NCBI RefSeq assembly: GCF_007421815.1
Contig: NZ_VLNT01000001.1
Location: forward strand, 356,573 to 420,572
DNA from: Aeromicrobium piscarium
Lineage (GTDB): Bacteria; Actinomycetota; Actinomycetes; Propionibacteriales; Nocardioidaceae
Direction of reading: 5' to 3'
Length of the DNA: 64,000 nt
The notes under the pieces are model-generated. The model was not told where the DNA came from. It searched no databases and worked only from the letters and a program-made list of their open reading frames with translations. Below, piece after piece: positions 5,691 through 58,389 of this stretch (positions are counted from its first letter, which is position 1; every line of letters begins with the position of its first letter). A program made the position numbers and the translations under genes.

Positions 5691-5813
5691 GCGGTAGCTG
5701 GTCAACGTCACGCCGGCGATCGGCCGGGACGGAGGTAGAACGTCAACCTCATCGCGCCTCGATAACGTTGCCGATCTACCGCTGCACGAGACGTGAGGTT
5801 GATGGCCTACCGC
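5691..5813. repeat. Four-arm dyad element, family A copy 1
   Basis: Four ~20-bp arms: forward at 5691-5710 and 5732-5751 (consensus GCGGTAGGCCATCAACCTCA), inverted at 5763-5782 and 5794-5813. The last three arms start 31 bp apart. The element lies directly downstream of the photolyase stop and upstream of the thioesterase, both on the minus strand. Copies 2-4 are at 31436, 36903 and 58277. The arms can pair into a long stem, so a terminator or 3'-end processing role is the simplest reading. Confidence 0.75.
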
Positions 5814-13351: not shown

Positions 13352-13449
13352 GATCCGACCCTACGGTCAGCGCCAAGACCGGGCTCGCTGAACGCGAGGC
13401 GACCGCGTGGGCCGCGTGTGCCATCCTGGAATCAGGACCTTCCCGGTCC

Positions 13450-13490
13450 CCGGACGAGGAGAGCCGTACCCGGAGTGCGACAAGACGGCC
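13450..13490 (+). ncRNA. Guanidine-III (ykkC-III) riboswitch
   Basis: The blocks CCGGACGAGG (13450-13459), GCCGTACCCGG (13463-13473) and GACAAGACGGC (13479-13489) match the conserved core of the class III guanidine riboswitch in sequence and order. Spacing is one base longer in one loop than the Thermobifida fusca example as I recall it. The ribosome-binding site (GAGGGAG, 13494-13500) follows within a few bases, so ligand binding probably frees it for translation. The gene controlled is the SMR exporter at 13503. Confidence 0.9.
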
Positions 13491-13502
13491 ATCGAGGGAG
13501 TG

Positions 13503-17680: not shown

Positions 17681-17954
17681 CCCCAGCGCGGAGACGATCG
17701 CCGAGGCCGTCCAGGCCATCGACGGCGTTCACAGCCTGCACGGAGGGCTCTTCGGGGAGGTGGCGACCTATCTCCCCGGAGGCCGCGTCTCGGGCGTCCG
17801 GATCGGCGACGACGGCGTCGACGTCCACATCGTCGTGAGGACGGGACGGCCCGTGCTGCCCGTCGCGGAGGCGGTCCGCGCCGCCGTCGAGGCGATCACC
17901 GTCGGACCGACCCATGTGACGGTCGAGGACCTCGCCGACGTCACCGGCGACTGA
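17661..17954 (+). CDS. Small Asp23-like protein
   Basis: 97 residues from ATG 17661, overlapping the previous gene by 20 bp. It has a compact alpha/beta pattern: AEAVQAIDGVHSLHGGLFG, YLPGGRVSGVRIGDDGVDVH, VVRTGRPVLPVAEAVRAAVE and VTVEDLADV. This is the core of an Asp23 domain without the usual N-terminal helix. Proteins of this size follow Asp23 genes in many actinobacteria. Position suggests a subunit of the same envelope-associated complex. Confidence 0.75.
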   Translation: MTDTSSDPSAETIAEAVQAIDGVHSLHGGLFGEVATYLPGGRVSGVRIGDDGVDVHIVVRTGRPVLPVAEAVRAAVEAITVGPTHVTVEDLADVTGD

Positions 17955-29564: not shown

Positions 29565-29856
29565 TCTCACGCCGCGCGGGCGCGGGGTCCGGCCGGGAGG
29601 GAGGGAAATCGGTGCCGTACCCACTGTGCCCAACGACACGTCCGTGGCGAGGTTATGGCCGCCTCGGCACTTTCCGGACGAGGTGACTGATCGTGATGCT
29701 TCGTGGTCGCGATGGCGACCCGAAAGCATCGACATCGGTCCGCGGTCGGCGAGAAGTCGATGCTGTGCGGCTGCCATGACGACCACGAGGCATCATCATC
29801 GGTCCGCGACGCCGGGCGGGGCGAGGACGGCTGTGGCGGCTCCCTAGAATCGAGGG
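29565..29856. other. Gene-free leader region before guaA
   Basis: The region from the GNAT stop (29522) to guaA (29857) is 334 bases, and no gene is supported in it. Besides the terminator at 29528-29564 it contains a diverged 64-bp tandem duplication of a hairpin (29695-29822) that ends about 35 bp before the guaA start. The guaA promoter must lie in this stretch; no clear -35/-10 pair could be picked out. Confidence 0.5.
29695..29822. repeat. Tandem hairpin duplication upstream of guaA
   Basis: Two units about 64 bp long follow each other. Each begins with a hairpin opened by GATGCT and closed by GCATC (29695-29730 and 29759-29794), then a shared block CATCGGTCCGCG (29733-29744 and 29797-29808). 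The outer arms GATGCTTCGTGGTCG (29695-29709) and CGACCACGAGGCATC (29780-29794) also pair over 15 bp with one mismatch. The element could be part of the guaA leader RNA or a repeat element. Confidence 0.55.
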
Positions 29857-31422
29857 GTGAGCCCAGATCATGACCTCGTCCTCGTCGTCGACTTCGGCGC
29901 TCAGTACGCCCAGCTCATCGCCCGACGGGTGCGGGAGGCCAAGGTGTACTCCGAGGTCGTCCCCCATACGATGCCGGCCGAGGAGATGCTCGCCAAGGAG
30001 CCGAAGGCGATCATCCTGTCCGGCGGACCCTCGTCGGTCTACGAGCCCGGTGCGCCCGCGCTGGCGCCGGGTCTCGTCGATGCCGGGATTCCCGTCTTCG
30101 GCATCTGCTACGGCTTCATGGCCATGGCCCAGGCTCTCGGCGGCGAGGTCGCCAAGACCGGCCAGCGCGAGTACGGCCGCACCCGGGTGTCCGTGAGGGA
30201 GCCGGGCACCCTCCTCGAGGGGCTGCCCGAGGAGCTCGTGTCGTGGATGTCGCACGGCGACGAGGTGGTCGAGGCGCCCGAGGGGTTCACCGTCAACGCC
30301 ACGTCGTCGCGCGCCACCGTCGCGGCCTTCGAGGATGTCGGCCGTGGTCTCGCGGGGGTGCAGTGGCATCCCGAGGTGCTGCATTCCGAGCACGGCCAGC
30401 GGGTCATGGAACGGTTCCTCCTCGAGATCGCCGGTTGCCGGCAGACGTGGACGAGTGTCAACATCGTCGACGAGCAGGTCGAGCGGATCCGTGAGCAGGT
30501 CGGCGACGCGCGGGTCATCTGCGCTCTCTCCGGAGGCGTCGACTCGGCGGTCGCCGGGGCTCTGGTCCAGCGCGCCATCGGCGACCAGCTCACCTGCGTG
30601 TTCGTCGACCACGGACTGCTCCGCGAGGGGGAGGCCGAGCAGGTCGAGCAGGACTTCGTCGCGTCGACCGGGGTCACGCTCAAGGTCGTCGACGCCGTCG
30701 ACCGCTTCCTCGGGCACCTCGACGGTGTCTCCGACCCGGAGGAGAAGCGCAAGATCATCGGCCGCGAGTTCATCCGCGTCTTCGAGCAGGCCGAGCGCGA
30801 GGTCGTCGAGGCGGCACCGGAGGGCCAGCCGGTCCGGTTCCTCGTGCAGGGCACCCTGTATCCCGATGTCGTCGAGTCCGGCGGCGGCGAGGGCGCGGCG
30901 AATATCAAGAGTCACCACAATGTCGGTGGGCTTCCCGAGGATCTCGAGTTCGGTCTGATCGAGCCGCTGCGGACGCTCTTCAAGGATGAGGTCCGCGAAG
31001 TGGGCCGCCAGCTCGGGCTGCCCGCGGGCATCGTCGAACGGCACCCGTTCCCCGGCCCCGGCCTTGCGATCCGCATCGTCGGCTCGGTCGACGCCGATCG
31101 CCTGCGCATCCTGCGCGCCGCGGACAAGATCGTGCGCGAGGAGACCACCAGGGCCGGTCTCGACGCCGAGATCTGGCAGTTCCCGGTGGTGCTGCTGGCC
31201 GATGTGCACTCGGTCGGCGTCCAGGGCGACGGCCGCACCTACGGTCACCCGATCGTGCTGCGCCCCGTCACCAGCGAGGACGCCATGACGGCCGACTGGG
31301 GACGGCTCCCGTACGACGTCCTGGAGCGGATGTCCACGCGCATCACCAACGAGGTCGACGAGGTGAACCGCGTCGTCCTCGACGTCACCAGCAAGCCCCC
31401 GGGCACCATCGAGTGGGAGTGA
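29857..31422 (+). CDS. guaA: GMP synthase (glutamine-hydrolysing)
   Basis: 521 residues, full family length. The N-terminal class I glutamine amidotransferase has the nucleophile Cys in [12 protein letters not shown] and the His/Glu pair in [13 protein letters not shown]. The ATP pyrophosphatase domain carries the P-loop [14 protein letters not shown] near residue 225. The C-terminal dimerisation domain ends with KPPGTIEWE. It converts XMP to GMP in the cytoplasm. GTG 29857 is the start; a weak GAGG lies upstream. A 113-bp-class repeat element follows the stop. Confidence 0.97.
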
Positions 31423-31435
31423 CCCTCGCGTCGTG

Positions 31436-31518
31436 GTGGTAGGCCATCAACCCTTCCGCGCTCGGTGGCGGTAGACCGTCAACCTCATCCGTAGCCCATA
31501 ACGTTGATGGCCTACCTC
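31436..31518. repeat. Dyad element, family A copy 2 (three arms)
   Basis: Arms at 31436-31455 and 31468-31487 (forward, GTGGTAGGCCATCAACCCTT and GCGGTAGACCGTCAACCTCA) and 31499-31518 (inverted). Arms start 31-32 bp apart as in the other copies; the fourth arm is missing. It follows the guaA stop by 13 bp and precedes the GDPD gene. Confidence 0.75.
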
Positions 31519-36902: not shown

Positions 36903-37016
36903 GCGGTGGGTTGTCAACGTCTCCCTCCCCGGTGGAGGTAGCTGATCAACATCATCGGGGCTCGATAACGTTGATCAGCTACCGCCACCAGCGAGGAAAG
37001 GTTGACCAGCTACCGC
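36903..37016. repeat. Four-arm dyad element, family A copy 3
   Basis: Forward arms at 36903-36922 and 36935-36954, inverted arms at 36966-36985 and 36997-37016. Arms start 32, 31 and 31 bp apart. In this copy the arm core has changed to GGTAGCTGATCAAC and the facing inverted arm carries the matching change (GTTGATCAGCTACC), so base pairing is kept. It lies between the convergent ends of the ClgR-like gene and clpP. Confidence 0.78.
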
Positions 37017-58276: not shown

Positions 58277-58389
58277 GCGGCGCCTGGTCAACCTCACGGA
58301 TGCGTCAGCGGTAGGCCATCAACCTCATGACGGGTCCGTGAGGTTGATGGCCTACCGCTGCCACCGAGGTGAGGTTGATGGCCTACCGC
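58277..58389. repeat. Four-arm dyad element, family A copy 4
   Basis: Forward arms at 58277-58296 and 58308-58327 (GCGGTAGGCCATCAACCTCA in the second), inverted arms at 58339-58358 and 58370-58389 (both TGAGGTTGATGGCCTACCGC). All start-to-start distances are exactly 31 bp. It lies after galK and before pheA, both on the minus strand. The best-preserved copy. Confidence 0.8.

Follow-up and report, generated by a model that had tools for sequence, protein, structure and literature searches.

Behind genes of the Aeromicrobium genome studied here we find at least 92 multi-arm arrays of one short word, called family A, with the arms mostly spaced to the exact base pair. With a probability of about 0.46 we read these arrays as phased duplex-DNA sites for a putative protein, which at gene ends perhaps acts as a transcription roadblock. 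The starting point was a preliminary description of four copies in the window, by which we mean the whole 64-kb stretch of DNA that was analysed. The window's own genome (G000) has 3,756,209 bases in 46 contigs, and Aeromicrobium sp. PE09-221 (G031) is its sister species.

In the window the word GGTAGN4TCAAC with at most one mismatch gave 16 matches against 0.90 expected from shuffles, and 14 of the 16 lie inside the four copies (Table 1), all of which were found where the preliminary description had placed them. K-mer enrichment restricted to the window did not reveal the family. In the whole genome the exact word occurs 224 times (113 + 111) and a reversed control pattern 8 times (3 + 5), so the further copies that the four-copy proposal depended on do exist. 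Arrays were taken from 75 fetched stretches of this genome, 531,960 bases in all, with contigs C34-C46 covered in part, hence the lower bound on their number; we estimate the family at about 100 arrays in 3.76 Mb. Chaining all arms within 110 bp of each other resulted in 100 clusters with 326 arms, from which 8 single-arm clusters were set aside. One isolated strong arm, at C24:12587, lies within a gene as called by our own simple gene caller.

The conserved arm is longer than the 20 bp first described, about 26 bp (ggYRGC-GGTAG-NNNN-TCAAC-CTCAT), and a weight matrix over these 26 positions, with a score of at least 10, found 324 arms in the fetched stretches against 7 in the reversed sequence. 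The two half-words are separated by four bases in 200 exact arms of these stretches and never by 1-3 or 5-8, which removes the five-base spacer that had also been allowed. The arm is a near-palindrome with its centre at position 7. Among the middles of 314 arms CCA is seen 95 times (49 expected) and its reverse complement TGG 68 times (19 expected); TCG (15, 40.2 expected), TGA (7, 24.3 expected) and CCG (18, 38.5 expected) are underrepresented, and the middle words are far from independent.

Table 1. Positions of the family A arms in the window, copies of family B and two riboswitch matches (N4, the four-base spacer of the arm)
Feature	Position	Strand	Remark
Copy 1, arm 1 (outer)	5693..5706	+	N4 CTGG
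Copy 1, arm 2 (inner)	5734..5747	+	N4 AACG; 41 bp from arm 1, i.e. 31 plus one turn
Copy 1, arm 3 (inner)	5767..5780	-	N4 ATCG; one core mismatch
Copy 1, arm 4 (outer)	5798..5811	-	N4 GCCA
Copy 2, arm 1	31438..31451	+	N4 GCCA
Copy 2, arm 2	31470..31483	+	N4 ACCG
Copy 2, arm 3	31503..31516	-	N4 GCCA
Copy 3, arm 1	36905..36918	+	GGTGG variant; array flanked by two convergent genes
Copy 3, arm 2	36937..36950	+	N4 CTGA
Copy 3, arm 3	36970..36983	-	N4 CTGA; pairs with arm 2
Copy 3, arm 4	37001..37014	-	N4 CTGG
Copy 4, arm 1	58279..58292	+	Weak (GGCGCCTGGTCAAC)
Copy 4, arm 2	58310..58323	+	N4 GCCA
Copy 4, arm 3	58343..58356	-	N4 GCCA
Copy 4, arm 4	58374..58387	-	N4 GCCA
Family B, window copy	29687-29803	+	Degenerate; 5' of the gene starting at 29857
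Family B, further copies	G000 C13:7633-7732, C34:193560-193658, others		
Guanidine-III riboswitch	13430-13493	+	55 bits
Guanidine-II match	17804-17854	+	Below threshold, 26.1 of 32 bits; 4.3 kb past guanidine-III

Three arms per array are most common (51 of the 92), followed by four (31); two and five arms are found in 4 arrays each, and six and seven arms once each. With the direction of the arms written as > and <, the most frequent orders are ><< (26), >>< (24) and >><< (21), and additional arms lie on the stop side 27 times and on the distal side 16 times. Convergent neighbours are exactly 33 bp apart in 87 of 94 cases and same-direction neighbours keep a step of exactly 31 bp in 113 of 129, and thus the spacing pattern seen in the four copies is conserved genome-wide. 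The steps of 31 or 32 bp originally reported hold for same-direction and outer arms, as does the single 41-bp step of copy 1, whereas the facing arms are set at 33 bp; in bp, the window copies read 41/33/31 (copy 1), 32/33 (copy 2), 32/33/31 (copy 3) and 31/33/31 (copy 4). A convergent pair at 32-34 bp is present in 91 of 92 arrays, the exception being C1:289276 with 65 bp, and divergent neighbouring arms were met in 3 cases.

Steps that depart from these norms number 23, of which 15 do so by 1 or 2 bp and the rest by +10 (three times), +11, +4, -3, -6 and +32. Five same-direction steps exceed 31 bp by more than 2, and four of them are longer by 10 or 11, which is one helical turn; counting the clearly longer steps of either kind, four of six have one added turn of the helix. 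Inner arms mostly end in CTCAT, GTTAT or CCCAT and outer arms in CTTTC, CCTTC, CTCAC or CTCTC, a difference that subunits at different places of a complex might require.

The fetched DNA contains 558 genes (90% coding) according to our gene caller, and 89 of 91 arrays adjoin a gene 3' end, which extends to the whole family the placement just after gene ends noted for the four copies. Genes were found on both sides of 91 of the 92 arrays, with 57 of the gaps tandem, 32 convergent and 2 divergent; among all 266 gaps of 60 bases or more in this DNA, those with arrays included, 147 are tandem, 60 convergent and 59 divergent. The median distance is 11.5-15.5 nt behind the stop and about 65 nt to the next start, and of the 15 tandem gaps that leave 150 or more free nt, 14 have their array no further than 66 nt from the stop. 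For 10 of the 91 arrays the overlap with a called gene exceeds 10 nt, which may be an artefact of the caller or real. In the window, copy 1 follows the stop of its right-hand neighbour, a minus-strand gene, at a distance of 12 nt, and copy 2 starts 9 nt past the stop codon of the gene with its end at 31422.

A position behind stop codons is what an RNA hairpin, as terminator or as an mRNA-protecting 3' end, would also give. The window copies do fold well as RNA (z -3.89, -5.50, -7.51 and -11.04), as expected of an inverted pair, and a hairpin explains for free that > comes before < in nearly all arrays. When the partners of facing arms were re-dealt, 19.69 paired columns over all 26 compared with 19.61 (p 0.31), i.e. 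there was no excess of pairing; nested outer arms behaved likewise (19.92 against 20.14, n 25), and the mean folding energy of the dyads was -29.42 against -29.10 for re-dealt arms, with 15 of 40 shuffles equally stable. Dyads in which both facing arms have G at position 14, a combination that would pair, number one where 8.4 are expected, so it is avoided, and the > and < arms are unequal in number in 66 of 92 arrays; both speak against a hairpin. The re-dealing method is sensitive enough to detect agreement between facing arms in a second repeat, family B (42 dyads), where columns 5 and 9 show more agreement than any of the 1000 shuffles and column 8 has p 0.03, the overall pairing count having p 0.07.

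A small excess is confined to the N4 columns, and it is here that the hairpin finds some support. Facing arms share an identical N4 in 18 of 93 dyads against 7.3 expected, and the pairable cells of these columns amount to 0.605 against 0.556 expected (p 0.03). The change in the arm core of copy 3 that was said to keep pairing is real, in that both facing arms have CTGA, yet such dyads are a minority and it is not a rule. Identical N4 is also found in same-direction neighbours (17 of 129 against 10.8 expected, p 0.03); this excess cannot be pairing, and local duplication or palindrome correction is therefore a possible source of both.

No U tract was detected behind the last arm: at eight positions outside the outermost arms of 87 arrays, both strands taken together, U is found 9-28 times of 174. 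Rfam gave no window array reaching the gathering score, with sub-threshold matches to miRNA hairpins at copies 3 and 4 and at family B. As for other hairpins in the same gaps, stems of at least 8 bp outside the array are found in 3 of 50 tandem gaps with an array and 9 of 109 without (at least 40 free nt), and in convergent gaps of the same kind they are commoner beside an array (5 of 13) than where there is none (2 of 31; p 0.017). U-tailed hairpins outside the array were seen in 0 of 57 tandem gaps against 5 of 89 control gaps without an array, a weak hint in favour of the hairpin, as the arrays might stand in for such terminators. Since other hairpins are not rarer in array gaps, and U-tailed ones are rare either way, there is no clear sign that an array replaces a terminator. 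With the re-dealing tests null and other hairpins coexisting with the arrays, we judge an intrinsic terminator or RNA stem unlikely, and the hairpin in either of its two roles seems to us improbable. The preliminary description had held a protein lattice to be as possible as an RNA stem; its lattice fits the spacing and its doubt about a simple terminator stands, while the stem fails on covariation.

Family B consists mostly of two 36-bp dyads 64 bp apart (>28<36>28<) with the arm GATGATGATGCGTTGYGGYYGC, and exact dyads number 13 in G000, 8 in PE09-221, 1 in the Aeromicrobium genome G030 and 0 in the other 46 genomes. Like family A it mostly has four arms and nearly the same species distribution, with its dyads repeated at 64 bp; unlike family A it has the sequence GATGATGATGCGTTGYGG, the order > < > < and covariation of facing columns 5, 8 and 9. 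At one gene 3' end common to both species (G000:C1:215742 and G031:C49:34433), family A is found in G000 and family B in G031.

The distribution of family A is narrow. The count of exact arms covered 148 genomes of the order, with the window's own as one of them, and PE09-221 is the only other genome enriched (27 + 29 against 6 + 4); in none of the remaining genomes of the order is the count more than 2 above that of the control. Within the genus exact arms are thus enriched in 2 of 49 genomes, the other 47 being at control level. A scan for exact dyads in 84,980 species genomes returned only PE09-221, with a strict pattern and with the window's own genome possibly outside the scan. No neighbouring arms were met in the sequence sampled from G036 (194 kb), from G029 (160 kb) and from G030 (34 kb). 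The outgroup G036 has a repeat of its own with TAGGTGGTCGAGTAG and TATCGAGACCAC (C37, C2; L239-L248), whose 11-mers occur in up to 6 of 101 sampled intergenic gaps and whose GGTGG recalls the flank of family A.

Of 38 loci in PE09-221 fetched by exact arms, 27 are at the same gene ends as arrays in G000, judged by eye, and 24 array pairs in 22 loci could be aligned; the rest have no or partial counterparts among the fetched G000 stretches. On two whole contigs of PE09-221 it was possible to place 12 multi-arm arrays of G000, and 11 of the places, all but that of window copy 3, could be classified. Six of these have a family A array, some of them weak, two are cleanly empty with gaps of 19-20 nt (one of the two being where window copy 1 would lie), one has a short 61-nt gap and no array, one holds family B instead, and one, that of window copy 2, has unrelated sequence. 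As some loci of the sister species are without an array, no single array is essential. The place of copy 4 has an array in PE09-221 as well, and a matrix scan of 18 loci in other Aeromicrobium found none in any of the 18, only two isolated weak arms; the gap is short in 10 further Aeromicrobium. The simplest account is that family A was gained on the branch leading to the two species. The comparison of the clpP locus also met a second clpP pair, which most relatives lack. Next to clpP, in the gap that contains copy 3 in the window, the genome G023 has a near-perfect palindrome of more than 200 bp by eye (L125, about 1240-1480), which may be what is left of an insertion sequence or an artefact of the assembly.

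The conservation set comprised the 24 orthologous array pairs with 55 arms, 7 of them largely deleted in PE09-221, and 21 exact arms were left out because the loci had been selected by exact arms. Identity between the two species reaches 0.877 for the core, against 0.639 for N4, 0.60 for the linkers and 0.796 outside. Only consensus bases of G000 were counted in the core, so that a neutral core would reach about 0.80-0.82 by a rough reckoning, and on the same reckoning the difference between core and N4 is mostly ascertainment. Once this is allowed for, the evidence for selection on the arms since the species split is weak.

Such a history is compatible with a non-autonomous mobile repeat, REP/BIME- or MITE-like, in which the arms would be transposase sites, spread by a burst in the common ancestor of the two species that landed behind genes without harm. 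The restriction to two genomes, the arrays at the same gene ends in both, the empty sites in relatives and at some sister-species loci, the nearly equal distribution of a second family and the weak sign of selection on the arms all go with it. What a transposed unit should leave behind is less evident: in 87 arrays we found no MITE or insertion-sequence termini and no target-site duplications, shared k-mers of 4, 5 and 6 being as in shuffles, and base preferences in the flanks fade at about position -13, with no sequence conserved beyond the arms. A MITE was thus rejected for want of ends and duplications. Paralogue linkers are near random, with identity 0.375 for centre linkers and 0.362 for direct ones where composition gives 0.316 and 0.349, while arms and steps are kept, and the arrays are therefore hardly recent copies of one master. 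The variable number of arms and the pinning of wide-gap arrays to the stop codon also speak against mobility, as does the lack of a RAYT transposase (Y1_Tnp, PF01797), which was found in 0 of 49 Aeromicrobium genomes, with the control positive in 5 of 14. Some REP families have no known transposase gene, and the absence of RAYT alone does not exclude the REP type. With regard to carriage, copy 3 was unmatched in plasmids, copy 4 was unmatched in phages, and the exact dyad was absent from viral contigs. Taken with its evidence on both sides, the mobile repeat appears rather unlikely to us.

Family A does resemble the GTAG-tagged, RAYT-associated REP/BIME repeats in being extragenic (apart from the called-gene overlaps given above), high in copy and lineage-specific, mostly behind genes, with about 100 copies of inverted regular units and GGTAG at the outer end of each arm. 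Unlike them, its arm has no palindrome after GTAG and its spacing is fixed to the base pair, that of REP being variable. In the portions available of PMC2817692 and PMC3733652, the REP/BIME unit is an imperfect palindrome in which complementary changes are kept. Membership was rejected on conservation of the palindrome, where covariation and energy are null and N4 alone has a small excess, and on the transposase.

A second known system with a similar word is the stoperators of cluster A mycobacteriophages, for which the available part of PMC5712189 gives the consensus GGTGG(C/A)TGTCAAG. Their repressor is a two-domain monomer when bound and halts transcription elongation (PMC9283540, in part), and the sites lie predominantly in one direction relative to transcription (PMC6550527, in part). 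As far as these partial sources go, both have a two-part, asymmetric word whose middle is loosely defined (GGTGG-MTG-TCAAG in the phages, GGTAG-NNNN-TCAAC here) in many intergenic copies, and they differ in that family A is chromosomal and forms phased arrays with arms in both orientations, nearly all arrays holding a convergent pair. The Trixie phage repressor is a member of phrog_357, with matches to PDB 7r6r/7tz1; phrog_357 gave no match at E<=0.1 in G000 or PE09-221 and weak matches in 6 of 49 genomes, the best being 3.5e-5 in G025. We rejected membership of the stoperators, with the repressor absent from both species, the arms facing both ways and the sites arrayed; by analogy an array may still work like one. 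Helically phased operators are also known from the NrdR boxes, which stand an integer number of turns apart, are bound cooperatively and lie in the promoters of a few genes. Family A shares the integer-turn spacing and, on the protein reading, would share cooperative binding; it differs in that its roughly 100 arrays sit behind genes.

The reading of the arrays as phased protein sites would work as follows. Each arm would be a duplex-DNA site for one unit of a sequence-specific DNA-binding protein, and one unit is probably a dimer, because GGTAGNYSRTCAACC reads as a near-palindrome about S. In most arrays three or four units would occupy the same face of the helix in contact with one another, forming a compact complex between the gene and its neighbour. 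This complex may be a roadblock or insulator that stops read-through of RNA polymerase into the next gene, which is the least certain step and, drawn from position and analogy only, our best guess for the use of the arrays; it would act beside ordinary terminators and not instead of them. For the protein sites speak the exact genome-wide spacing with its added helical turns, the lack of selection for pairing over all columns in facing or nested arms along with the rare G14/G14, the differing ends of inner and outer arms, the placement at gene 3' ends and near the stop in wide tandem gaps, the near-random paralogue linkers between arms and steps that are kept, and the hairpins elsewhere in the gap, which are not rarer where an array is present. 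Against them stand the strong hairpins of single arrays, the nearly constant order of > before <, the N4 identity of facing arms, the sister-species loci that have no array and the weak hint from the U-tailed hairpins.

We found no partner protein among the genes beside the two divergent-gap arrays and the seven-arm and six-arm arrays; by eye these look ordinary, being metabolic, transport or glycosyltransferase-like, and no regulator stood out. A protein of this kind could also serve to organise the nucleoid or be linked to division, for which the sites of SlmA, Noc and MatP are models, with the ground behind genes as the least harmful place. The estimated size of the family in this genome and its phased multi-site design would suit such a role. 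Even where gaps are wide, however, the arrays stay within a few nt of the stop, and 47 other genomes of the genus are at control level, where a core function would be conserved unless its sequence changes fast; we consider this role quite improbable. We further speculate that this is a bacterial form of termination by protein roadblock: a DNA-binding protein specific to the lineage would build a phased block of several subunits on the duplex behind about 100 genes and insulate neighbouring transcription units, as a genome-wide stoperator system that belongs to the bacterium instead of a phage, a proposal that in this complete form we regard as unlikely.

Interspersed repeats behind bacterial genes are usually taken for RNA hairpins or for relics of REP transposition. 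Family A, with its roughly 100 members, fails the tests for both as far as they were run and keeps its spacing to the base pair, and in the open-access literature no paper on such arrays or on Aeromicrobium repeats was found among the matches listed. If the family is mobile after all, it would be a repeat family without the expected transposase. It is young within the genus, so its origin can be traced by comparing filled and empty sites. If the protein block at gene ends is true, it would be a form of transcription punctuation in a bacterial chromosome, and to our knowledge none of this kind is known from bacterial chromosomes.
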